This document shows positions 4,490 to 55,844 of a stretch of DNA of 64,000 nt, piece by piece. The notes below the pieces were generated by a model. The model made no database searches. It was given only the letters and a program-made list of their open reading frames with translations, and was not told the origin of the DNA. This DNA comes from Synechocystis sp. PCC 7338 (GTDB taxonomy: Bacteria; Cyanobacteriota; Cyanobacteriia; Cyanobacteriales; Microcystaceae). Each line of letters opens with the position of its first letter. The stretch's first letter is position 1. The translations under genes and the position numbers were made by a program. The stretch lies in contig NZ_CP054306.1 of assembly GCF_018282115.1 (NCBI RefSeq), positions 1,411,488 to 1,475,487 on the forward strand, given 5' to 3'.

Positions 4490-7400
4490 ATGGTTGCTAA
4501 CCCCGCTCTGCCCCCCCAAAACATTGAAGCTGAAGAATATATCCTCGGGGGTATTCTGCTTGATCCAGAGGCGATCGGTCGCATCATTGACCTCCTAGTA
4601 GTGGATGCTTTCTATGTCAAAGCCCACCGTTTGATCTATGAGTCCATGCTCAGCCTCCATGGCCAAAGTCAACCCACGGATTTAATGTCCGTCAGTAGTT
4701 GGCTCCAGGACCACCATCACCTAGAGGCGATCGGGGGCATGATCAAATTAACCCAATTGTTAGATCGCACCATTTCAGCGGCGAACATTGACCGTTTTGC
4801 CGTCCTAGTAATGGATAAATATTTGCGCCGCCAATTGATTGCAGCGGGGCATGACATAGTTGATTTAGGTTACGAAACCAGCAAAGAATTAGAAGTAATT
4901 TTTGACGAATCGGAACAGAAAATCTTTCGATTGACCCAATCCCGTCCCCAGGCAGGACTAGTCCCCCTGTCGGAAACCTTAGTTAACACTTTCATTGAAC
5001 TAGATAAATTACACGAAAAACTTTCCAGTCCGGGGGTAGAAACTCAGTTCTATGACCTCGATGCGATGACAGGGGGATTACAGCGGGCAGATTTAATTAT
5101 CTTGGCTGGTCGGCCGTCAATGGGTAAGTGCTGTGCGGCCAATGCAGAAATTGTTTTAGCAAATGGACGTATTTGTACAATCGCCGAAATTTATAAGCAA
5201 AAGAAAGCAGAGTTATTAACCCTTAACCAAGATTGGAAACTCGATTGGACTAAGCCTTCAGACTTCATTGACGATGGCATTAAACCAGTTTTTCGTGTCA
5301 CTACAAGATTGGGGCGTTCCCTGGAAACTACATTGGCCCATCCCTATCTAACAATAATGGGTTGGCAGACCCTTGCCAATTTAAAAGTAGGGGATAAAAT
5401 TGCTGTGCCCCGTCATTTACCTTGTTTTGGCAACAAAATTTTAAATTCTGGTAAGGTCAAATTATTGGCATATTTGATTGGTGATGGAGATGTTACCGGA
5501 TCCTGCCCTCGATTTACTAACATTAACCCTAGAATTAGGGCAGATTTTGAGGAGGCAACTAGGGATTTTCCAGGTATTGAACTTACTGTTGAAACTTCTA
5601 ACAACACCCGCACTCCAACCTTAAGAATTTCTAAGAATGTAAAAGTAATCGCTCGGAAAAGAGAAATTTTTGGTGAGAATCTTAATAACATAATTAAAAT
5701 TAAATCTTTAAAAACCAAAGAATTAGCTAGTAAAGTAAAAGTCAGCATTGCCAGCATTGATAATTGGAAAAAAGGTTATTGTTTTCCAGAGAAAAATAAA
5801 TTCAAATTACTTTGCCAAGCTTTAGGAGTTGAGCCCAGTCTATTGTTGCCTCCAGGAGCTCAGGAAACGGAACTGATGAAAAATGGAGCTAGTAGTATAA
5901 AAATTTGGCTAGAAGAACTGGGGGTAGATGGTAAAACCGCCCATACCAAAATTATTCCTGATCTAGTTTTTCGATTGGAAAAATCTTTACTGGCTCTATT
6001 TCTAAATCGCTTGTTTGCCACGGACGGTTGGGCTAGCATTCTTAAAAGTCAGCAAATTCAGCTAGGTTATTGTAGTGTCAGTGAAAAATTAGCTCGACAA
6101 GTTCAGCATCTTCTTTTGAGATTTAGTATTATTGCAAAACTCAAAAGAAAAGCAATTAAATATAATAATCAATTAAGAAATGCTTGGCAATTGGATATTA
6201 CTGATGCTTATTCAATTAAAAATTTTATTGAGCAAATTGGAATTTTTGATAAGGAAGAACAACTTATCGCTATTCAATCTTTACTAATCAATAAAAACCA
6301 TCAAACTAACTGTGATCTTATTCCTATAGAGGTTTGGGAACAATTAAAATTAGCTAAAGAAAATGAATCTTGGTCTTCTTTAGCTAAACGTTCCGGCATT
6401 ATTAATTGCAGTAATCTTCATGTAGGCAAAAGATCTTTGACAAGAGGTCGCTTACTAAAGCTATCAAACTCCCTGGCAAATGTTCCCCTTCAGCAATTGG
6501 CGACTGGTGATATTTATTGGGATGAAATTGTTTCCATTGAATCCGTTGGCTTAAAACAAGTCTATGATTTGACAGTGCCAGAAACCCATAACTTCATTGC
6601 CAATGATATCTGTGTGCACAATACAGCTTTTGGCTTAGGAATTGCCGCAAATATTGCCAAAAATCAAAATTTGCCAGTGGCTATTTTTAGCCTAGAAATG
6701 TCTAAGGAACAGTTGGCATTAAGACTTTTGGCCAGTGAATCTTTAATTGATAGTAATCGTTTGCGGACGGGGCATTTTAGCCAAGCAGAATTTGAACCGT
6801 TAACGGCGGCCATGGGCACCCTTTCTAGTTTGCCCATCTACATTGATGATACGGCAAGTATTTCCGTGACCCAAATGCGTTCCCAAGTGCGACGTCTGCA
6901 AAGTGAGCAAAAAGGTCCCTTGGGCATGGTTTTAATTGATTATTTACAACTAATGGAGGGGGGCAGTGATAATCGGGTGCAGGAGTTATCAAAAATTACC
7001 CGTTCCCTCAAAGGTTTAGCTAGGGAAATTAATGCGCCGGTAATTGCGTTATCTCAGCTGAGTCGAGCTGTAGAATCGAGAACTAATAAGCGACCAATGA
7101 TGTCAGATTTGAGAGAAAGTGGTTGTATTAGTGGAGATAGTTTAGTTAACTTAGTTACAGGTAAAAGAGCCTCTATTAGAGATCTAGTAGATCAAAAAAA
7201 TTTTGAAGTATGGGCAATTAATGAACAGACAATGAAACTAGAATCAGCTAAAGTTAGTCGTGTATTTTGCACTGGAAAAAAGCTAGTTTACATTTTGAAA
7301 ACTCGGCTAGGTAGAACTATTAAAGCAACGGCAAATCATAAATTTTTAACTATTGATGGTTGGAAGAGATTAGATGAGTTATCTTTACAGGAGCATATTG

Positions 7401-7998: not shown

Positions 7999-8910
7999 AT
8001 GCGAGAACAGATTTCTGTCCTTACCCAAAATCTTAGTCAAACTATTGTGGGCAAGGATGAGGCCATTCGTTTAGTGTTGGTGGCCCTGTTGAGTGGAGGC
8101 CATGCTCTGTTGGAAGATGTGCCCGGTGTGGGCAAAACCCTCTTGGCCAAGTCCCTGGCCCGTTCCATTAACGGTAAATTTCAGCGGGTGCAGTGTACCC
8201 CCGACTTATTGCCTACCGATATTACTGGCACTAACATTTGGAATCCCAGCAGTCGTGAGTTTGAGTTTTTGCCTGGCCCGGCCTTTGCCAATATTCTCCT
8301 GGCCGATGAAATTAACCGAGCTACCCCCCGCACCCAGGCAGCTTTGTTGGAGGTGATGGAAGAAAAACAAGTCACGGTAGATGGTGAGACCCGATTGGTG
8401 CCCCATCCCTTTTTTGTCATTGCTACCCAAAATCCCATTGAGTACCAGGGCACTTTTCCCCTACCGGAAGCCCAGTTGGATCGTTTTGCCCTTTCCCTGA
8501 GTTTGGGTTACCCCTCGGAAGCTGAGGAGTTGAAAATGCTCCAGCGGCAACAAAATCCAGAGGCGATCGCCGTAGGGGACTTACAGTCTTGTATTTCCCT
8601 AGAGGAAGTGGAGGCATTGCAAAAGACGGTGCGGCAGGTGAAACTGACGGAGGATTTGCAACAGTATCTCCTGCGCTTAGTGCGGGCTTCCCGAACGGAT
8701 AAAGATGTAACTTTGGGGGTCAGTCCGCGGGGTACTACAGCTCTGCAACGGGCCACCCAAGCTTATGCCTTTTTGGAAGAACGGGATTATGCCATTGATG
8801 ATGATGTAAAGTTTGTTGCTCCCCATGTTTTGGCCCACCGTTTAATTCCTGCGAGCGGTAAAGATCCCAAGGCAATTTTGCAAAGACTTTTGGACAGCGT
8901 CCCCATTTGA
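7999..8910 (+). CDS. moxR: MoxR-family AAA+ ATPase
   Basis: 303-residue AAA+ ATPase. Walker A is DVPGVGKTLLAK (about residue 43), Walker B LLADEINRA (about 97), followed by the sensor region FVIATQNPIEYQGTFPLPEAQLDRF and an arginine-finger/lid domain. MoxR proteins act as chaperones that mature or insert cofactors into protein complexes, often with VWA-domain partners. No VWA gene is adjacent here, so the client is unknown. The ATG at 7999 is preceded by about 130 bp of gene-free DNA after dnaB. Confidence 0.92.
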   Translation: MREQISVLTQNLSQTIVGKDEAIRLVLVALLSGGHALLEDVPGVGKTLLAKSLARSINGKFQRVQCTPDLLPTDITGTNIWNPSSREFEFLPGPAFANILLADEINRATPRTQAALLEVMEEKQVTVDGETRLVPHPFFVIATQNPIEYQGTFPLPEAQLDRFALSLSLGYPSEAEELKMLQRQQNPEAIAVGDLQSCISLEEVEALQKTVRQVKLTEDLQQYLLRLVRASRTDKDVTLGVSPRGTTALQRATQAYAFLEERDYAIDDDVKFVAPHVLAHRLIPASGKDPKAILQRLLDSVPI

Positions 8911-45028: not shown

Positions 45029-45116
45029 GGTTAAAAAGGGGAAGTCTTCCCATCCGATTCCCGTTTGGAAATGTAAGATGAGCAATGATTCAGGGGAGGT
45101 CTATGCAAACTAAAAA

Positions 45117-48100
45117 CTAAATATTGCCACCAAAATCCAGACTGACTAGTAGATCGTTGAAGTCTCGATCGCCACCGCCAAACATATCTTCTACGCCGTA
45201 AAGGGATTGACCCAGGCGCATGAAATGATTTTCGTTGTCGGGATTAGCTTGTTCATACATAAAGAAGGCGTTAACACCACCGGGTCGGTTACCGGGGTTT
45301 TCCAGTAAAAATTGCTCAGTGGTTCCATTGGAGATGATGAACAAGCCGTAATTGGCCCCCGCTGTTAGCTGAGTGGTCTCCATTTTTTGGGAAAAATTGT
45401 CTGGGGCACTAAAGGTGATGCCTCCAGTCAGGGGATCCCGACCCTGGGCCATACGAACCGCTGCTTCTGCGTAGCCTGCTTGCCCTGGCAAAAAGTCTAT
45501 GTTGCCATCGTTATTGTAATCAATACCCCCATTGGCATTGGCAAGTTTATATAAACCGAGGGTATTTTCAAAAGCGCCAGCCCGATGAATTTGAATATTC
45601 GTGGCGATCGCCTCCCCTGGCAAACCAGGGACAACGAGGGGGAGGGTAAAAACTTCGACGGCATATTTACCGTTGGGGGTATCCGCTGAAATCTGGGTAA
45701 AGCCTCGACTATCCTGGATTACCAACAAATTATTATCCTCAACGGAAAACATTTCGTTACTGTTTAAGTCAAGGATATAGGGGGTCAAACTATAGGCATC
45801 CTCAATGGTGACCTGGGAAAATGTGCCGACGGCTTTATGCTCGGTGGGAGCCAGGGAATTACCGGAAGTAATAACTTGTTGAGCCAGGGTTCGGTTTAAG
45901 GCCAAACTATCCGCCGGATCTGCTTCCACAACGGGGTTAAATAGACTCCGTTCACCGTTGCGAAAAACACCGGCTTGGCTTTCGAGGGCGACAAAGGCCG
46001 ACCAGCCTTCATCGGTGGGATCATAGGCACCGACCAGCCCCCGGAAATCATCGTAATCAGTTTTAATGAAGCCGAACTCGAAATTGCCATTTGTGGGCAA
46101 GGACACAGCCCGCACCGTCAATGGTATTGGTTGGCCAAATCCATTTAAAAACCCTGAACCACTTAGTGGGGTTGCCAATCCCGGTGTTGTTTTCGCCAAA
46201 AGCCCGGACAATTCCACTTTGCCATCGGCCAGGCCATCTAGATCCGATGGTGCTCCGTCTTCGAGGTGCAGAAGAACCCGGTCAAATTTACCGTCATTAT
46301 TGCTGTCGATTAATTCAGCGCCGACTTTACCGTCAAATAGGAATTCAGTCCAAATACCAGTGACGGGATCTTGTCTTAAAAAAGTATTTATTCCCTGGTG
46401 CTCCGGTAATAGATCAATGGCGATCGTGCTGCTATCCCCTGGTTCAACGGCTAGACTTAGCTTAAAACCTTCAGGGGCAATGCTATATTCCCAACCGGGA
46501 AGTGTGCTGGGAGTGAAAGTGGAAACATTCTTCAATATATCTCCGAATTCATCCAGATTAAATTGTCCCAAGGAAGTGCCGACTTCTCCGGTTAGGAAGA
46601 CAATGTCATGGGAATCTTCTATGGCAACGGTGGCATCCCCGGCGGTATAAAGGATAAAATTGCCGTCTTCATCTTTCCTTTGTCCTTGTTGTTGCCAGTC
46701 ATCATCGAGATAGATAGTTCCGTTGTCACCTTCGATGCGAAGTATATTTTCATCGGGAGCGATCGCCAGGATAGCGGCTTGATCAAGGACAATTTCCCCT
46801 GCATCGGCAAGTTGAAATATTTCAATGCTTTTAATGTTGATCGTCTCGCTTTCTGCCAGATTGAGCAATTGAATGCTCGCTAAAGTGTCGGTACCTCCGC
46901 CACCATCAATAAAATCATTTCCCAAACTCCAGTAGATAATGTCATCTCCGAGGCCGCCCAAGAGGGTGTCATCTCCCTCGCCGCCGCTGATTGTGTCATT
47001 GCCTTCTCCTCCATCTAAATAGACTCCGCCGAAACTATTGTTAGGGGAAGCTTGCAAAAGGTCGTTTCCTGCTCGGCCTAAAACTTTTGTGTAGGAACCT
47101 ACAACAAAGGTATTATTGCCCCCCTCCATGGTGATAAGTTTAGGGTTGGCACTGATAAGCAGGTCGTCATCTCCAAAGCTGTCACCGCTTCCAGGGCTAA
47201 TAATCAGGGAATTGAGGTTAATGGGATTATTTTTTTGGTACTCAAATATATCGAAGTCTTCCGGTAAATTAATCACTTGAAGCTGTTCAAGGGAATATTC
47301 AAGTACCTGTACCCGTTGGGTTTCTAAATGAACATCCCCAAATTGATTTTCAACTTTAAATTGCAGCCAATGTTCTCCTAGCTGGTCAACCGTCGGCTGC
47401 CAAATAAGTTGATTGGTCACTGGGTCATAGCTGGCCCCTTCCGGCAGAATTAGGGGAGTTACGGTTTCATTTTCAGCCTTGCTAACTTCACGGGTATAGG
47501 CTTCTCCCACCACCGCAATGTAGTCCCACTCATCACTATCCCCCAAGGCGATCGCCGCATCATAATTACCTGCCACCGCCAGGGATGTTTTCCCTACCGC
47601 CCCTAGGCGATTGCTGTCATCAACGGATTGAATTTGAAAGCGATACAATTCTCCTTCGGTCAGGCCATCAACAATGAGTCTATGATAGAAACGTCCGTCT
47701 TCCTCTTTATAAATAGTTACTAACCCGGAAGTAGGTTGAATACCGCTAAAGGCCGGGTCAAGGGGATTGTCAAGAACTCCCGCAGGATTGTCAGACCAAC
47801 GCACATTATAGTACTGGGGCTTAACGGTGTCGCTCCAGGTTACCGAAAACTTACCGTCCCCAATCCAGTTGGCGCTTAGATCCTCAACAACGAGTAAATC
47901 ATTACCCCGACCCAACATCAAACCACCGATGGGACGGTTACTATCCGTAAATGAACCAGTGTTTGCTGCCAGATTGGGCCCACCGACAAAATAACGGACA
48001 GTGGGTACATTCTCCACATCATCCGCCGTCACAAAGAAGTGGTAGTCGCCCTGGGGAACATTGTTTAAAAACCAACGATAGGTTCCATTGCCGGTGCTAG

Positions 48101-50441
48101 GGTCATGGTCGATAGTGGCGAGGAGGGTGCCATTTTCCCCCTTACCATCGGTATCCATATAGAGATCAACTTTGACGCTATCGGAATCAGCATCGGCCAC
48201 GGAGAAAACAATATCCACCCACTGACCGTTGGCATCCGGAATAATTTCCTCAATTTCCGCAACGGGGGCAATGGAATTTTCAAACATTTTGATTTGAATC
48301 GGCCCAAGATCCACCGGCTGAACTTGCCGCACTGTCCAAATTCCCGCCTGCGGTGCAACAATACCCAAGGAAATCCCTTGGTCACTACTAAGTTCCTCTA
48401 CCAACATTACTTTGTCACCCCCAATAAAATCCTTGGAGGTGTAGACGGTGCCGTCGGGGGCCACCAGTTCAAATAGTGATGATGGATTTTCGATCATATT
48501 TTTTGACAGCCAACGGATGCTTACCGCTGACCATTTTCGTCCCTGACTAACGTCAAAAGATCGGGTCGGTAGTACATCACTAGAATGTTGTTGTTCGTAA
48601 TCCGCTAAGGCCGTCTCCGATGTTGCTAGTTGACTAAATTCTTCAAAAGAATCGACCGCTCCCAAACCGCCAAAACCATCAATATCCTTGCCAATAATGA
48701 CATCAACATTGCCGCCAAAAGTAATTCTGCTCCCCACTCGATCGCCGAAAAAAGGAGGAGCGAACTGCGGCCAAGTAATCCAAGACGCAACAAAACCATA
48801 TTCAGGACGGAATTGAGCCGTTGGGTGGTAGGGAGCGGCATACTTCAGCATCGCCGTCGCGTCAGCAATGTCTTGTCCACCTACGAAAGGAATAAAACCT
48901 GGATATTTGCTGGATGCCGTTGCCCGGAGTTGAAAATTAAGCCTCGCGTCTATATTGAATAATCCATTTAGTACTACTACATCAAATGGCAGAGCCATAC
49001 GAGTTTGGGATTGAAGCACCACCCCGTGACCTCGAACGGCGGAATCAATGTTTAGAAAAGTCCGATTTTGACCAATGGTGAATCCCAAAATACTCAACGA
49101 AGCGGCAATATCAATGCCCACCGGAATTTTTACCGTTACCCCACCATCAATCCTCAGGGCACTAATACCCTGACCTTTTTTGCTCCCTCCCAACCAATCC
49201 GGAAAATCGACTTCAAAGGATGGCCCCAGGGACACCCCAATTTGCCCATTGAGGTTAAAACTTTGCCCAGGGAGGAGAGGTGGAATATTTTCAAAGTTAG
49301 CTCCGATACGCTGGAGGTAAATTTGGGATTCAGGAGTGGACATCAATATGTTGAGATTGTCCGCATAGAGTCCAAAGGAGCTAATCTGCGAACCGCTAAT
49401 CACACCGGCCTCATTGCGAAGAAAGCGGAACCCAAAGTTTCCTCCTAATTTTAAACTGTTCCAAGGACGGACTAGAACTTCTCCAGCTATCTTTCCTTCT
49501 AATTTGACAGTATCCATTTCAACAGTTAGAAGATTAATTCTAACAGCACCCATATCGAAGAATTGCAGTGATGCGAGAAACGCAATATCAACCACAGGAT
49601 ACTTGTCATAAATACGGATAAATCTTTGACCGGCAATATCTACCCCTACCGTTCCCAAACTGAATAAGTTAATATCTGATTTTCCTTGAATTTGAACATA
49701 TCTGTCAACACTATTAATTTCTAGTGCAACGCCGGTAATCGAGCCAATTTTAAGTGGTTTTTTGGGATCGGGTTTTTGGGGATCAAAACCTGGTGGCGGC
49801 TCCTTGGGTTCAAACGTTGGAATATTAAATTCCCCCTTTTTTTTATACTGATAGTACCAGTTGAAAACATTGCCTAAATTCAAATCCGGTAATTGAATAC
49901 GTCCGCCACTAACCTCTGGGGTGCCTCCAGGAAACGTCAAATCAAAGAAGGAACCAAAAGTTGGGATATTGATACCGGGAAAAATATCTGGAATCGCCCG
50001 ATAGGAAACAGCACCTGCATTATTTTCACCACCAAAAATGGTAATATTTTGGTAATTGAGACCAATGATGTCCTGCACCGGGTCATAGCCGCCCTCAACA
50101 CGCTCACTACGCTTTACCTTACCTTCCAACTTATTTTTCTTTGGATTTAATACGTCATCAAAAGCAATGGCTCCCCGAAAAAGCTTAAATCCCGTACTTC
50201 TATTATGAATGTTGAGAATTGTCCCTAGAGCGGCTATATTTTGAATCTTTCTTCCATCTTTTTTGTACTCTAAAACTTCAATAAAGCCGTCACTGGCACC
50301 GGTGCCTACTGAAATTAAGGGAGTATCGCCCCAAAAAAGCCTGACATCATCATAGGTCGTTTTAGTCGCCTGTGTCCCATCTTCCAGGAAGGCGGTTTTT
50401 TGCCCGAGGAAATTACCAGTAAATCTAAATTTGTTAGTCAT
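45117..50441 (-). CDS. Giant multidomain protein with RTX repeats and C-terminal DUF4114
   Basis: 1774 residues, without an N-terminal signal peptide. Residues about 1-600 are a beta-rich region I do not recognise. About 600-860 contain exported-protein beta-sandwich modules, then a fibronectin-III-like domain (about 880-985) and a putative Ig/cadherin-like domain (about 1010-1090). Calcium-binding RTX nonapeptides follow (GGEGNDTISGGEGDDTLLGG, near 46950-47030). The end is a DUF4114 domain (AFFMYEQANPDNENHF, then GGGDRDFNDLLVSLDFGG). This is the plan of type I secreted surface or matrix proteins. The secretion genes for it are not identifiable here. Confidence 0.85.
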   Translation of the reverse strand: MTNKFRFTGNFLGQKTAFLEDGTQATKTTYDDVRLFWGDTPLISVGTGASDGFIEVLEYKKDGRKIQNIAALGTILNIHNRSTGFKLFRGAIAFDDVLNPKKNKLEGKVKRSERVEGGYDPVQDIIGLNYQNITIFGGENNAGAVSYRAIPDIFPGINIPTFGSFFDLTFPGGTPEVSGGRIQLPDLNLGNVFNWYYQYKKKGEFNIPTFEPKEPPPGFDPQKPDPKKPLKIGSITGVALEINSVDRYVQIQGKSDINLFSLGTVGVDIAGQRFIRIYDKYPVVDIAFLASLQFFDMGAVRINLLTVEMDTVKLEGKIAGEVLVRPWNSLKLGGNFGFRFLRNEAGVISGSQISSFGLYADNLNILMSTPESQIYLQRIGANFENIPPLLPGQSFNLNGQIGVSLGPSFEVDFPDWLGGSKKGQGISALRIDGGVTVKIPVGIDIAASLSILGFTIGQNRTFLNIDSAVRGHGVVLQSQTRMALPFDVVVLNGLFNIDARLNFQLRATASSKYPGFIPFVGGQDIADATAMLKYAAPYHPTAQFRPEYGFVASWITWPQFAPPFFGDRVGSRITFGGNVDVIIGKDIDGFGGLGAVDSFEEFSQLATSETALADYEQQHSSDVLPTRSFDVSQGRKWSAVSIRWLSKNMIENPSSLFELVAPDGTVYTSKDFIGGDKVMLVEELSSDQGISLGIVAPQAGIWTVRQVQPVDLGPIQIKMFENSIAPVAEIEEIIPDANGQWVDIVFSVADADSDSVKVDLYMDTDGKGENGTLLATIDHDPSTGNGTYRWFLNNVPQGDYHFFVTADDVENVPTVRYFVGGPNLAANTGSFTDSNRPIGGLMLGRGNDLLVVEDLSANWIGDGKFSVTWSDTVKPQYYNVRWSDNPAGVLDNPLDPAFSGIQPTSGLVTIYKEEDGRFYHRLIVDGLTEGELYRFQIQSVDDSNRLGAVGKTSLAVAGNYDAAIALGDSDEWDYIAVVGEAYTREVSKAENETVTPLILPEGASYDPVTNQLIWQPTVDQLGEHWLQFKVENQFGDVHLETQRVQVLEYSLEQLQVINLPEDFDIFEYQKNNPINLNSLIISPGSGDSFGDDDLLISANPKLITMEGGNNTFVVGSYTKVLGRAGNDLLQASPNNSFGGVYLDGGEGNDTISGGEGDDTLLGGLGDDIIYWSLGNDFIDGGGGTDTLASIQLLNLAESETINIKSIEIFQLADAGEIVLDQAAILAIAPDENILRIEGDNGTIYLDDDWQQQGQRKDEDGNFILYTAGDATVAIEDSHDIVFLTGEVGTSLGQFNLDEFGDILKNVSTFTPSTLPGWEYSIAPEGFKLSLAVEPGDSSTIAIDLLPEHQGINTFLRQDPVTGIWTEFLFDGKVGAELIDSNNDGKFDRVLLHLEDGAPSDLDGLADGKVELSGLLAKTTPGLATPLSGSGFLNGFGQPIPLTVRAVSLPTNGNFEFGFIKTDYDDFRGLVGAYDPTDEGWSAFVALESQAGVFRNGERSLFNPVVEADPADSLALNRTLAQQVITSGNSLAPTEHKAVGTFSQVTIEDAYSLTPYILDLNSNEMFSVEDNNLLVIQDSRGFTQISADTPNGKYAVEVFTLPLVVPGLPGEAIATNIQIHRAGAFENTLGLYKLANANGGIDYNNDGNIDFLPGQAGYAEAAVRMAQGRDPLTGGITFSAPDNFSQKMETTQLTAGANYGLFIISNGTTEQFLLENPGNRPGGVNAFFMYEQANPDNENHFMRLGQSLYGVEDMFGGGDRDFNDLLVSLDFGGNI

Positions 50442-50830
50442 GACAAAAAAGATTATTTGCTTTTACTTTTACTTGCCAAAAATTAGGTTGTTAGTTTAAG
50501 TTTCGTGAATTTAGAATTTAAGAGTCTTGCCCTAACTATCGCTAGATGAATATCTTATAGGATTCATATAAAAACACACTTAAAAAAATATCATAAACCT
50601 CTCCTTGAGTCAAAATTATTTAATTTTTATCCGACTTAATGTTGTCTTAATATTCGCTTAATATTCTTTTAGTATCATTGGCAATGTTTATGATTTTTGA
50701 GGGCGCCCCAAATAACCTGTTCTAAGGTGACTTCAGTTCGTCTAATTGCCTAGGGCTATGAATTTACTAACTAATATCGAAGGAGGCATGTTGCCTCCCA
50801 GTCCTAAAATTGAACTTTATTAAAAAAGCT
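50442..50830. other. AT-rich gene-free region upstream of the giant gene
   Basis: 389 bp, strongly AT-rich, no HIP1 site and no credible frame. It holds the promoter of the giant gene and the 3' end of the next minus-strand gene. Confidence 0.45.
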
Positions 50831-51487
50831 TTATCGTCGGGCAAGCATTCTGCGAATTTCAGCGTTCAACTCACGAAAAACTCCCTTGGGACTGACCGCA
50901 TCTAACATCTTTACAATCAATTTGGTTTGTCCCATACTTAACTCTCGATTATTGGTAAGGGACTCTAATTTAACTTTGACAATATGATTGCGAATATCTT
51001 CTTCCGATGCTTTTTCCGCCACCATATTAGAAACAATTTTACTGGAATTGGCAAATTGAATAAAATCCTTGTTGAGCAAATCGTAGGAAAGTTCGCCTTT
51101 TTTATTAGTGTAAGCGGCGAGAATAGCTTCATATTCTTGACTACAAACTGTTTCTAGATCTTCGGGGGCATCGTCCTCAGCGGCATCGGGGGTATTTGTT
51201 GGAACTGAAGTTGTAGTCGTCATCGTTAGCCTAACTTTACCTCGCTTAGAATAGGGCAACCCGGAAGTTAGTTCCAATGCTTCTCGAAAAGCATCCACGG
51301 GAAATAATTCAGCTGGAATGTTGGCCGCAAGGTCTGGTTCCCCAGAAGCTTTATTAATGGTAGCTAATCCCGGTTGGTCGGTATCATAACGCAGGATCAC
51401 AACGCCAGACTTACTTGGATCTCTGAGTTTTTGCCGATAGGCTACAGCTTCAATGGTGGAAAGTTCAACTAATTTAGTTCTGATCAT
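50831..51487 (-). CDS. Protein of unknown function, last gene of the peptide locus strand
   Basis: 218 residues. The N-terminal half is mixed alpha/beta (EAVAYRQKLRDPSKSGVVIL). The centre is a low-complexity Thr/Pro/Asp/Glu linker (TMTTTTSVPTNTPDAAEDD). The C-terminal half is helical, with one Cys. There is no signal peptide or membrane helix. I do not recognise a family. It lies 87 bp after the GNAT gene on the same strand and may belong to the same transcript as the two double-glycine peptides. Confidence 0.7.
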   Translation of the reverse strand: MIRTKLVELSTIEAVAYRQKLRDPSKSGVVILRYDTDQPGLATINKASGEPDLAANIPAELFPVDAFREALELTSGLPYSKRGKVRLTMTTTTSVPTNTPDAAEDDAPEDLETVCSQEYEAILAAYTNKKGELSYDLLNKDFIQFANSSKIVSNMVAEKASEEDIRNHIVKVKLESLTNNRELSMGQTKLIVKMLDAVSPKGVFRELNAEIRRMLARR

Positions 51488-51574
51488 TTTTATAGATATT
51501 TGTGATTGAAAAATGTTTTTGGATAATCTGAAAAATCAATTAATACCTGGTATTTTAACTGATTTCCCCAAAAT

Positions 51575-52476
51575 TTATGCTATCAAAGCTTTGGAAGCTC
51601 GCCACGCATACTTAAGATCGTCGAGATGAGGAGCAAGACGACGCTGAACAAAGTTGATCATGGGAGTGTTATCAACATCTACACGAAATGTTGCCTTAGG
51701 AATTTCAGGTATTGCCCCAACTTGAATGTTGATAGCTGTGGCAAGCATAATCAAGCTTCGACTCAGGGGTTGAAAAGCTGGATCAACAAACATCTGAGTG
51801 TAGCGAATGGTATCAGGGGCAATGCGGTGGGTAATGATCCAACCAATAATTTCATTTTTATAACGTAGTCCCAAGCTGTTGAGAGATTCTAATTTTTTAC
51901 TTTCAATAAAAGGATTAAACTTTTTAATGAGTGGATCAGTATCTATTTTGGCTTTAATTGCTTCTACGTCTACTTCAGTGAGGTTAGACCAAGGGAAAAG
52001 TGAAAATTCAACAGGAAATTTAGCAGATAGTTTTTCAAAATTTCTCAAAAGACTTGCATTCTGAATTTTTTTTGTATTTCCATAGCAAATCAACGCTGTT
52101 TTTGTCGACTTTTCCCAATGACAACTCGCAAGCATTTGTTCGATAAATACCTGATTGGGATTATCGAGATAACCCAAGGACACTTTTTCACAACTACGAT
52201 GTATTAGTTCATTTTCCAACGATTGCAGTAGCGCAGTACCGATTCCCCGTTGACGATATTCGGGAATGACAAATAGCGAACAAATCTCGGCAACTTTTTT
52301 TTCCTCGTAAATAGCATCTTTAGCCAGAATGAGACCAACAGGATTACTCCCAATTTCTAGACCGAAAGCAATCCAAGAGTTATCCTCAGAGATGTGTAAG
52401 AGATGAGATTGATAGGCTGGGTAGGTTAATTCTTTAAAGCGTATGACCGAGACACTGTCAAGTTGAGTTCATACAT
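51575..52476 (-). pseudogene. GNAT acetyltransferase gene with a one-base frameshift near its start
   Basis: From 52476 an ATG begins MYE, but the acetyltransferase frame (starting SVSVIRFKELTYPAYQSHLL) is one base out. That frame has no ATG, GTG or TTG until the TTG at 52217-52219. Adding one A to the GAA codon 3 would give a continuous 300-residue protein. The acetyl-CoA loop is VIPEYRQRGIGTALLQ, and the C-terminal half resembles a second GNAT domain (YKNEIIGWIITHRI). The shift is either a real mutation, with a truncated 214-residue product, or a sequencing error in an A-run. Substrate unknown. Confidence 0.72.
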
Positions 52477-52572
52477 GGAAGATTAGCTCAAAGAAATTTA
52501 GTGATGATCGCTACAGGGTCAGAAAAGTATTCAAAAACTTACCAATCCCTAAATATAAAGCCAAAGAATTCA

Positions 52573-52597
52573 AATCCCCCAAAAAAAGCGGGGGATT
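52573..52597. repeat. Small C/G-tract palindrome
   Basis: AATCCCCC (52573-52580) and GGGGGATT (52590-52597) form an 8-bp hairpin with an A-rich loop. It resembles the core of the repeat units flanking the DUF559 remnant. It sits between the GNAT gene and the double-glycine peptide genes. Confidence 0.6.
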
Positions 52598-52706
52598 CAA
52601 AATGGCAATAAAAACTTCATACATAGACCCTAAAATTAAACCAATACGCAAGCAAAATACTACGTTTATAGTTTATTTAGAGACATTATAAAGACCAATT
52701 CAAAAA

Positions 52707-52844
52707 TTAATATTTAATTGGGTTGAAAAGCACACTACCACCACAAACAACTTCTAACTCTGAGTCAGAAAGTTCGCGGTACTTGGGAGCGGTGGACTGG
52801 GATTTTGTTTCTTGACGTTGTACAGACTTTTCAATTTTAGACAT
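52707..52844 (-). CDS. Double-glycine secreted peptide precursor 1
   Basis: A 45-residue gene, ATG at 52844 to TAA ending at 52707. The leader (residues 1-36) starts MSKIEKSVQRQETK and ends KYRELSDSELEVVCGG, a classic double-glycine processing site with the hydrophobic and acidic positions recognised by C39 peptidases. The predicted mature peptide is only SVLFNPIKY (9 residues). Its leader is almost identical to that of the gene at 52955-53125. The C39-ABC exporter is divergent, about 530 bp away. The very short core could be a signal peptide or a truncated paralogue. Confidence 0.85.
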   Translation of the reverse strand: MSKIEKSVQRQETKSQSTAPKYRELSDSELEVVCGGSVLFNPIKY

Positions 52845-52954
52845 GGGAGTATTCCTCAAAAATGTTTAACTAGCAACCAGAATTTCACTTGACGAAAATG
52901 TAAAACAGACAAATAGAGTCAGCTTTATCGCAAAAATTTACAAAAAATGCCTGC

Positions 52955-53125
52955 CTAAGCGTTTTTAACCGCAGATTCAGGAGATTGAACGTTATGAAAA
53001 TTACAATCTATATTCACGCCACCACAAACAACTTCCAACTGAGCGTCAGAAAGTTCGCGGTATTTAGTGGCGCTGGACTGAAATTTTGTTTCTTGACGTT
53101 GTACAGACTTTTCAACTTTAAACAT
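52955..53125 (-). CDS. Double-glycine secreted peptide precursor 2
   Basis: A 56-residue gene, ATG at 53125 to TAG ending at 52955. The leader MFKVEKSVQRQETK...KYRELSDAQLEVVCGG (36 residues) parallels precursor 1. The mature part is 20 residues, beginning VNIDCNFHN, with one Cys and no Gly. Leaders are conserved while cores differ, the usual mark of exported bacteriocin, pheromone or biofilm-type peptides. The Cys directly before GG is uncommon. It lies 247 bp from the divergent exporter start. Confidence 0.88.
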   Translation of the reverse strand: MFKVEKSVQRQETKFQSSATKYRELSDAQLEVVCGGVNIDCNFHNVQSPESAVKNA

Positions 53126-53372
53126 GGAATTGAGCCTCAGATGGTATTTAGGAGTGAACCGATACCTGAAGGCTAACAGGAGTGATTTAACAAGAGATTA
53201 AATTTAGATTAAGTTTTTGTTATTTTCTGTTTACTTAGATATTGATAGAATGCGGTAACGAAAAAACATAATTGTATTAACTACTACATTGAATTTGTAA
53301 TTTGAAATGGAATGAATTATAAGTAATTTCACTCAAGCAAAATGTACTCATCAAGAAAATCGTGTTACTTGC
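53126..53372. promoter_or_regulatory. Divergent promoter region of the peptide locus
   Basis: 247 bp, AT-rich, between the start of peptide precursor 2 (minus) and the exporter (plus). No reading frame is supported. It should drive both sides and is the place to look for co-regulation. Confidence 0.5.
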
Positions 53373-55523
53373 ATGGCTAAATATCAGTGGATTCAGCAAC
53401 AAAGTGGCGAGGACTGCGCGGCGGCAAGTTTGGCCATCATTGCAAAACATTACGGACGTAACATCAGAATCAATAAAATTAGATCGCTGGTGGGGACTCG
53501 GCAAGGGGGAACCACCTTACTTGGGCTTAAATATGGGGCCCAGGAACTTGGATTTATTACCTCAGCCATCCAAGCAGAACCCGAAATCCTTGATGAGCTT
53601 GATGAATGGACTTTACCGGCGATTATTTTTTGGAAAGGCTATCATTTTGTTGTTTTGTACGGGCAGGAAAAAGATAAATATGTCATTTCAGATCCGGCGA
53701 TCGGAGTGCGCTATCTAGACCGCCAAGAGGTAATTAAGGGTTGGCAGGGGGGCATGATGCTCCTATTAGAGCCAGATCCCAAAGGATTTATCTCTCAATT
53801 TGATGAAGAGCCGGTTCATCCCGTCGATAATCTCTTAAAGCGACTGTGGGAATATCGAGAAATTTTCAGCAAATTATTGCCACTAAATTTAGCTGTTGGT
53901 ATTTTTTCCCTATCCACACCCTTATTACTTAAATTTTTAACAGATAGTGTTCTGACTAAATCAGATAGTCAAAGATTAACCTGGGTTGCCCTTGGCGTTA
54001 TTGTGATTGCGGTGGTTAATGCTATTTGTTCATTTTTACAATCGAATCTCGTTGCATCGTTTGCAGAAGAATTACAAAAAGGTCTCAAACTAGAATTTGG
54101 CTTACAAATCTTGAATTTGCCCATTACCTACCATGAAGCCCGACGCAGTGGTACGGCAATTCGTCGTCTTTCCGATATTCAACGCATTAATTTATTAGTT
54201 TCTCAGTTAGTTATAGATCTGCCCATTAAAGCCTTTATCGGTCTTGTGGCCCTTGGTTTTATCGTCTTTTATAGTTGGCAGTTAGCGGTAATCGTAGCGG
54301 CGATCGGGGTCATTATGACCTTATCAACCATTGCTTTTCAGCCCATTGTTCGCCAGACGACCTACCGTTCTATTACCATGGCGGGGGAAAATGCTGGACT
54401 CCTAGCTGAATCATTTAATGGAGCTTTGACAACCAAAACAACGACTGCTTCTCCCCAATTATGGCTGGAAATTCAACATCGCTTACAACGGGAATTTAAG
54501 CTCAATTACCGCACGGCTCAAATTCGCATTATCAATAATACCTTTTCCCAATTGATGGCGGGGGTGGGCACAGTCATTATGCTTTGGTATGGCAGTGTTT
54601 TGGTTTTTGGTAATCAACTTAGTATTGGTCAACTTATTGCCATTTACGGTCTGCAACAAAGTTTTTTATCATTGATTACAACTTTAGTACAATTTTTCAT
54701 TGACTTTACCCAAGTTAAAGCTATTACTAGACTCCTGGCGGAATTATTTGAGTATGAACCAGAAAATCAAGGGGATGATCTCAAGGACTCCATTGAAATT
54801 TATCCCCAGGACGACATTGATTGTCAAAATATTAGCTTTTACTATCCCGGTCGAATCAAGTTGATAGAAGACCTGTCCGTTACCATCCCCGGCGGTAAAG
54901 TTGTCGGCTTTATCGGAAAATCAGGCTGTGGAAAAAGTACCTTAGCAAAAATCTTGACTGGTCTTTATTCAGTGCAAGCTGGAGAAATTAATATTGGGAA
55001 CCATAGCTTCGGGAATTTTTCTTTGATTTGCTTACGAAAACAGGTTGTGCTGGTTTCCCAGGATGCCTTTTTCTTCCATCGTTCTATTATTGACAACTTT
55101 CGTTTAAGTTCACCCGATGTTACCTTAGCAAAAGTGATAGCAGCCTGTAAAATTGCCCAAGCCCATGAATTTATCAGTCAATTTCCCGAACAATATGAAA
55201 CAATTCTCGGTGCAGTGGCGGCAAATATTTCTGGGGGACAAAAACAACGCTTGGCGATCGCCAGGGCAATTGTAAACGATCCCCCCATTCTGATTTTGGA
55301 TGAGTCGACAGCCAATCTCGATCCTATGACCGAAGCTGAAGTACTAACTAATTTGCTTACCAAACGTCAAGGAAAAACTACGATTCTAATTAGCCATCGC
55401 CCTAAGGTTATCAATTGTGCAGATTGGATTATTTTTTTGCAATCAGGAAAAGTAAAATTTAGCAATACAATAGAAAATTTTCGTTCTGAATTTGGAAATG
55501 CTTCTGATTTTTTATCTCCTTAA
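53373..55523 (+). CDS. C39-peptidase-containing ABC exporter (PCAT)
   Basis: 716 residues. The N-terminal C39 cysteine protease has its full catalytic set: Gln9 and Cys15 in QQQSGEDCAAASL, His91 in KGYHFVVLYG and Asp107 in YVISDPAIG. It should cut leaders after double glycine. The ABC membrane domain spans about 160-440. The ATPase (about 475-716) has Walker A GKSGCGKST, signature ISGGQKQRLAIARAI and Walker B ILILDESTANLD. Its predicted substrates are the two divergent precursors. No HlyD-type adaptor or outer-membrane gene is adjacent. A HIP1 octamer occurs near its 3' end. Confidence 0.93.
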   Translation: MAKYQWIQQQSGEDCAAASLAIIAKHYGRNIRINKIRSLVGTRQGGTTLLGLKYGAQELGFITSAIQAEPEILDELDEWTLPAIIFWKGYHFVVLYGQEKDKYVISDPAIGVRYLDRQEVIKGWQGGMMLLLEPDPKGFISQFDEEPVHPVDNLLKRLWEYREIFSKLLPLNLAVGIFSLSTPLLLKFLTDSVLTKSDSQRLTWVALGVIVIAVVNAICSFLQSNLVASFAEELQKGLKLEFGLQILNLPITYHEARRSGTAIRRLSDIQRINLLVSQLVIDLPIKAFIGLVALGFIVFYSWQLAVIVAAIGVIMTLSTIAFQPIVRQTTYRSITMAGENAGLLAESFNGALTTKTTTASPQLWLEIQHRLQREFKLNYRTAQIRIINNTFSQLMAGVGTVIMLWYGSVLVFGNQLSIGQLIAIYGLQQSFLSLITTLVQFFIDFTQVKAITRLLAELFEYEPENQGDDLKDSIEIYPQDDIDCQNISFYYPGRIKLIEDLSVTIPGGKVVGFIGKSGCGKSTLAKILTGLYSVQAGEINIGNHSFGNFSLICLRKQVVLVSQDAFFFHRSIIDNFRLSSPDVTLAKVIAACKIAQAHEFISQFPEQYETILGAVAANISGGQKQRLAIARAIVNDPPILILDESTANLDPMTEAEVLTNLLTKRQGKTTILISHRPKVINCADWIIFLQSGKVKFSNTIENFRSEFGNASDFLSP

Positions 55524-55844
55524 ACCGAGTTTATAATGCGTTTACATCCTGTTTAAGAAGAATTTATTTATGATGAGAAGAGCATTAAAATCGAGAAAAT
55601 AGACAATATTTCCTTAAGGTAGCTGGACATTAAAGAGTGACGCCAAAGTCAAAATTAAGCATAAAAATGCACTAGCTCATGGTGTTGCAGCGAATTACCT
55701 GATAAATCTCTCAATACTCTCCGACTGGAGACTAATGAGGAGGCGTCGATCGCCGATCAATTATATTTTTGAAGGTATGATTAGTGGGATTGTCAACAAG
55801 CTAAGGTACTGGCACTGAGGCTATAACCGTGGTTTTCTTTCCTA
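55524..55844. other. Gene-free region after the exporter
   Basis: 321 bp with no credible gene, RNA or repeat that I can identify. It marks the right edge of the accessory region before conserved core genes resume. Confidence 0.4.

Follow-up and report, generated by a model that had tools for sequence, protein, structure and literature searches.

A recurring cassette of double-glycine peptides, a GNAT and a C39 exporter in Synechocystis sp. PCC 7338, associated with Pho boxes and possibly producing short secreted lipopeptides

We analyzed a 64,000-nucleotide stretch of the genome of the marine Synechocystis sp. strain PCC 7338 (contig NZ_CP054306.1, C1:1411488-1475487; hereafter the window), in which two short genes, here called pepA and pepB, lie beside a GNAT gene and a divergently transcribed gene for a C39-peptidase ABC exporter (Table 1). 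These genes form a real, recurring peptide cassette, which in this strain is associated with Pho boxes, and they most likely encode a short-leader, GNAT-acylated secreted peptide system. Our preferred reading, to which we assign a probability of roughly 0.52, is that the locus is a compact cassette of the ribosomally synthesized and post-translationally modified peptide (RiPP) type, whose selidamide-like products would have a short leader, be acylated on lysine, be cut after a double glycine (GG), and be exported. At the level of the DNA sequence, this reading starts from the two peptides, their conserved leaders, an intact exporter, the recurrence of the cassette, a C-terminal lysine in the cores, and the Pho boxes. 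Searches of the strain's own genome covered 3,832,803 bases on 4 contigs.

The initial annotation had described two short minus-strand genes of 45 and 56 codons, with near-identical 36-residue leaders ending in CGG and unrelated cores of 9 and 20 residues, and both genes were found where it had placed them. The two leaders, which end in EVVCGG, share 29 of 36 residues and 94 of 108 bases, and the cores show no correspondence with each other. The list of open reading frames (ORFs) starts pepA at an upstream TTG (50 amino acids [aa]); its best start is the ATG at 52844, which gives 45 aa, and a GAGG stands shortly upstream of the ATG of both genes. A leader search of the strain's own genome (E up to 10) returned pepA and pepB as the sole copies. 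The same search over 386 genomes of the phylum matched 7 genomes at E up to 0.05, including its own; as judged by eye, the matches in G067 and G311 are GG peptides, and those in G159, G190, G198, and G314 are not.

The exporter contains PF03412 (C39), PF00664 (ABC membrane), and PF00005 (ABC ATPase) in a single chain, and its residues 3-697 align with 4ry2, an "ABC-type bacteriocin transporter." The divergent exporter with an intact C39 domain reported earlier lies at its given place, and the residues on which that claim rested (Gln9, Cys15, His91, and Asp107) are invariant in all 27 aligned exporters. By its domains and catalytic residues, the protein belongs to the peptidase-containing ABC exporters (PCATs), and cleavage of the leaders by its C39 domain is predicted. 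With PADLOC, all matches to the exporter were of the ATPase type, and neither of the other two proteins was matched.

As judged from the sequences, the pairing of pepA and pepB with the exporter is more than chance, because the same leader adjoins exporters of 62-63% identity in four other genomes. A GNAT search matched 23 of the 386 phylum genomes (E 1e-6 or better) and, within the order, 50 of 384 (E 1e-25 or better), and the gene order peptide, GNAT, exporter recurs in G067, G657, G651, and G600. The GNATs of these four cassettes are 44-48% identical to that of the window (44% in G067), and the exporters are 61.8% (G067) and 62.1-63.3% (G657, G651, and G600) identical. The six cassette precursors share the leader motif Y-x-E-L-x-D-x-x-L-E-V-x-C-G-G, of which Y, E, L, D, L, E, V, C, G, and G are invariant in 6/6. 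All genes run in a single direction in the four other cassettes, and the exporter is inverted in the window. In a tree of 27 exporter rows, which holds the window and G067 cassettes and leaves the other three cassette exporters outside, these two form one clade with support of 100/100. The combination of GG leaders with an intact C39 exporter is thus well supported by its conservation, and the earlier proposal to look in other cyanobacteria for CGG leaders beside C39 exporters was borne out in these four genomes. Involvement of the GNAT, previously an inference, likewise gained support from the recurrent gene order.

A further common property of the cassettes is a lysine near the end of the core. 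With the cut placed after the first GG for all counts, lysine occurs within the last three core residues of all six cassette peptides and is the sole core lysine in five of them; the pepB core has one, third from the end, and the pepA core one, second from the end, so that both offer the core lysine of a selidamide-type precursor. Such a C-terminal lysine was found in 5 of 21 GG peptides from exporter stretches without a GNAT (Fisher p 0.0016), and shuffles of core composition put the joint probability at 8.7e-5, which becomes 4.3e-4 when one near-copy is left out; these values come from a post hoc test with n = 6, including two near-copies, and with controls that are longer and partly near-copies. 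The two peptides that neighbor a third GNAT of G657 each have one lysine, located 1 residue from the end in one peptide and 4 residues in the other.

To place the GNAT, we compared its surroundings with those of known acylated peptides; the literature cited here and below is drawn on in excerpt. Selidamides (kamptornamide, phaeornamide, and nostolysamides) are RiPPs whose side chains, Lys or Orn, are fatty-acylated by GNATs (PMC9505594). According to a preprint on the nostolysamides, Lys1 in the core of a Nif11-type precursor receives C16 chains from NpuN, a tandem GNAT whose relatives accompany NHLP or Nif11 precursors (PMC13060382). We inspected 35 GNAT loci, namely the window, 14 from the list of 23 genomes, and 20 from the list of 50, mostly the best-scoring and therefore not a random sample. 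Within 6 kb of the GNAT, a Nif11/NHLP precursor was found at 16 loci, a pepA/pepB-like peptide at 9 (both at 3), LanM at 8, a C39 exporter at 14, and HlyD at 7. Pfam searches of examples confirmed Nif11, the nitrile-hydratase-type leader, and lanthionine synthetase; at G662 and the second G657 locus, pattern or tblastn searches revealed additional GG peptides. An end-to-end alignment of sixteen GNATs has 27 invariant columns, and the window GNAT is homologous over its length to those in Nif11, NHLP, and LanM clusters. In the PDB, the GNAT profile matched general GNATs over the N-terminal part; a single-sequence model of the window GNAT was poor (mean pLDDT 41.4). It shares with the selidamide systems a GG-type precursor, a C39 exporter, and a candidate core lysine. 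In contrast, the CGG leader of its precursors is short and of neither the Nif11 nor the NHLP type, LanM is missing nearby, the cassette cores have 9-34 residues, and acylation is a prediction. The system would work like a GNAT-acylated GG peptide system, with its chemistry predicted from sequence.

Two Pho boxes, each of three TTAA with a period of 11, lie in the same segment of the window, one before pepB and the other before a gene for an RTX-type protein. The perfect triple-TTAA pattern was observed twice in the window against 0.00 expected. Genome-wide, it occurs at 8 distinct places (11 matches with overlaps; 3 in the reversed control), two of them in this segment. Two more stand, as judged by eye, upstream of a PstS/SphX-like gene and of a porin that we take to be slr1908-like, and no phosphate gene was recognized at the other four.

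On the preferred reading, phosphate exhaustion would lead to synthesis of the pepB and pepA precursors, with their short CGG leader, from a PhoB-type promoter at 53187-53212. The GNAT, acting as a selidamide-maturase-type enzyme, would acylate the C-terminally placed lysine of each core, most likely with a fatty acid. Cleavage after GG would fall to the C39 domain, and the exporter would carry the 9- and 20-residue peptides out of the cell. Because the cores are so short, a signal or a surface-active peptide seems likelier than a classic bacteriocin.

Table 1 Features of the pepA/pepB locus in the window.
Feature	Position	Strand	Description	Evidence
pepB	52955..53125	-	56-aa precursor; leader 53125-53018, core 53017-52958 (20 aa)	ORF, leader alignment
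pepA	52707..52844	-	45-aa precursor from ATG 52844; leader 52844-52737, core 52736-52710 (9 aa)	ORF, leader alignment
GNAT gene	51575..52468	-	297 open codons without canonical start, probably frameshifted near start	ORF, Pfam, alignment of relatives
C39-peptidase ABC exporter	53373..55523	+	716 aa	Pfam; alignment; structure match 4ry2
Pho box	53187..53212		Three TTAA, period 11; 62-87 bases before pepB start	Pattern search
Second Pho box	50636..50661		About 195 bases before RTX start	Pattern search
RTX-type neighbor protein	45117..50441	-	1774 aa; HemolysinCabind, C-terminal DUF4114	ORF, domain search
Protein of unknown function	50831..51487	-	218 aa; probably a passenger	ORF, Pfam, genome search
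Segment without counterpart in congener G044	45047..55754			Comparison with G044

Besides the post hoc nature of the lysine comparison, several points weigh against the reading as acylated peptides. At E up to 1, neither pepA nor pepB matches the Pfam models of Nif11 or NHLP, the leader types reported in NpuN-type clusters (PMC13060382). The kinship of the window GNAT with NpuN would follow from genomic context and not from direct comparison, and cleavage, acylation and its site, outer-membrane passage, and role are all predicted steps. The GNAT of the window may be dead, because its frame has no canonical start and looks frameshifted. In this frame (52468-51575), the first ATG, GTG, or TTG is a TTG at 52219, within the conserved domain; 9 of 15 aligned relatives have Met-Tyr at the start point, and such a start stands here just upstream in another frame. 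The frames of the relatives are intact, and the anomaly may reflect a frameshift in PCC 7338, an assembly error, or an unusual start. The peptides of G662 and of the second G657 locus have lysine as the first core residue and none near the end; the NpuA core likewise starts with lysine (PMC13060382). At G572 (L213 2971-3975 and 1541-2593), the closest GNAT (52%) adjoins an RTX protein of 334 aa and an exporter found only as a C-terminal half, residues 365-714, and no peptide was found there. Phosphate control is not general to the cassette, because eight other GNAT loci, including the four cassettes, contained no Pho box with one mismatch allowed; the lone near-match, located where the L125 exporter ends, is at chance level. 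Finally, passage across the outer membrane in the absence of HlyD is an unexplained gap.

No HlyD adaptor gene was found in positions 36001-64000 of the window, and in this respect the locus differs from a tripartite type I secretion locus. The cassette of G067 likewise has a GNAT and no HlyD in the fetched stretch, and none was found within 6 kb of the GNAT at L214, L217, and L218, where the L218 contig starts 0.9 kb before the GNAT. In the strain's own genome, a HlyD query gave weak matches at three places, the best of them beside a HlyB-like exporter.

The cassettes differ in this respect from the wider family of the exporter. We collected 24 exporter cousins with 46-53% identity, consisting of 6 of the 7 strong family matches and 18 matches from a wider list (61 of 386 genomes), with the split exporter of G021 omitted. 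HlyD was present in the fetched stretch of all 24, in a few cases 1-5 kb off, and a GNAT in none (0/24); G662 is intermediate, with a GNAT, HlyD, and an exporter of 48.8% identity. Cyanobacterial clusters that combine a short-type C39 exporter with HlyD and CTB-type GG peptides have been described (Wang et al. 2011, PMC3140520) and resemble the window in the exporter, at 46-53% identity, and the GG leaders. They differ in that the window has no HlyD, a GNAT, very short cores, and a CTB score below the cut-off: pepA and pepB reach 16.8 and 19.8 bits against the CTB family bacteriocin model (NF038167), for which the curated cut-off is 32. Among related loci, G311 has five consecutive GG peptide genes that precede an exporter and HlyD (L172 9079-11009); against NF038167, the scores were 90.7 bits for a peptide of L172 and 45.9 bits for one of L174, and the one scanned from L172 is a CTB family bacteriocin.

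Since the exporter cousins stand with CTB-type GG peptides and no GNAT, pepA and pepB may also be read as plain GG peptides whose unmodified cores act as a pheromone or small bacteriocin, with the GNAT protecting the producer or being dead here. The weak resemblance to the CTB leader and the GNAT frame without a start codon fit this alternative as well. However, in four other genomes the GNAT gene separates the peptide gene from that of the exporter, and many related GNATs belong to RiPP clusters, so we regard unmodified peptides as unlikely, if a serious alternative. A partial parallel to either kind of product is the EbfG/PteB biofilm system of Synechococcus elongatus, brought up in the initial annotation, in which small GG-motif proteins are likewise combined with a C39 exporter in a cyanobacterium; the excerpted account (PMC4997328) makes no mention of a GNAT, and the likeness is by description only.

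The RTX gene suggests another explanation. In Synechocystis sp. PCC 6803, PhoB binds the sll1552 promoter, the cluster beside slr1651 is induced by phosphorus deficiency, the RTX protein is the most abundant exoprotein, and slr1651, sll1552, sll0720, and sll0721 have been proposed to form an exotoxin cluster (PMC11126600). Because gene order and content agree, the locus in the window is the apparent counterpart of these four genes: both have a divergent exporter, an acyltransferase, an RTX gene, and Pho boxes. The match is by order and content only, and the excerpted account in PMC11126600 does not mention GG peptides. Wang et al. (2011) listed two bacteriocin clusters in PCC 6803, one of them unclassified (PMC3140520), and the unclassified one may be slr1651.

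Applied to the window, the exotoxin proposal would give the GNAT a HlyC-like role, with the RTX protein as its substrate, and would make that protein the cargo of the exporter. It is a live rival that counts against our reading: a Pho box precedes the peptide genes as well as the RTX gene, and RTX-type repeats lie within 6 kb of 8 of the 35 GNATs, including those of the window and the closest relative. In contrast, the L125, L214, and L218 cassettes have no RTX match within 6 kb, the L217 match is a glycine-rich protein, and the RTX gene of the window was not seen in the other four cassettes. RTX exporters usually adjoin a HlyD-like gene. The genome's one other PF03412 match has such a neighbor, a gene resembling HlyD, and in the alignment other residues occupy the positions of its catalytic Cys and His, whereas the C39 domain of the exporter in the window is intact. 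We consider this exotoxin reading, with the RTX protein acylated and secreted, improbable. That the locus is only the decaying remnant of an acquired cluster, with HlyD and a working GNAT lost and no product made now, would agree with the missing HlyD, the missing GNAT start, and the absence of the segment from G044, but is very improbable given a 716-codon exporter with all catalytic residues kept, two peptides that retain start, GAGG, and leader motif, and a lack of HlyD seen in the four other cassettes as well.

The initial annotation did not include the Pho boxes, the RTX gene, the absence of HlyD, or the patchy distribution of the segment. The RTX gene, with its own Pho box, lies inside the segment that G044 lacks. 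The G044 flanks of this segment align at 92.7% and 94.2% and are about 70 bases apart, and the closest exporter matches in four congeners (G044-G047) have 26-28% identity. The G+C content is 0.384 in 50442-55754 and 0.463 in 45047-50441, compared with 0.467 and 0.501 on either side. Gain of the segment by acquisition is the simpler reading, the alternative being its loss in G044; the 200-base stretches at either end of the segment have no direct repeat of 9-14 bases in common.

The gene for the 218-aa protein had also been suggested to take part, a suggestion that found no support. The protein gave no match in Pfam (E up to 1) and was matched in 3 of 386 genomes including its own, with homologs of 67% identity in G313 and G060 only, where they are surrounded by unrelated genes. 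Its occurrence and these neighbors speak against it as a cassette member.

Related GNAT loci showed some further arrangements. At L129, L132, L133, and L134, the same GNAT domain ends longer proteins of 687-843 aa; RTX-type repeats lie within 6 kb at L129, L132, and L134, a possible sign that those proteins are acylated. At L216, GG peptides with hydrophobic cores flank the GNAT (6207-6398 and 8215-8385), the first of which passes the class IIb cerein-type cut-off. At L221 (6662-8516), two adjacent GNAT genes of this family follow a LanM gene.

If the reading of the cassette as a source of acylated peptides is correct, it would add a minimal leader type to the GNAT-acylated ribosomal peptides and provide a three-gene lipopeptide system in tractable cyanobacteria. 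The PhoB "exotoxin" locus of PCC 6803 would have to be re-read, with an exporter for small peptides instead of, or besides, the RTX protein, and the question would arise by what route such products pass the outer membrane when no adaptor gene lies next to the exporter. More tentatively, and with considerable doubt, we suggest that phosphate-starved Synechocystis secretes very short, GG-cut lipopeptides through a C39 exporter without a dedicated HlyD, their C-terminal lysine being acylated by a GNAT of a kind otherwise met in lanthipeptide and Nif11/NHLP clusters. If so, the PhoB response of the model strain PCC 6803 would include a component that has so far gone unnoticed. Such peptides could serve as a starvation pheromone or as surface-active agents against or upon neighbors.

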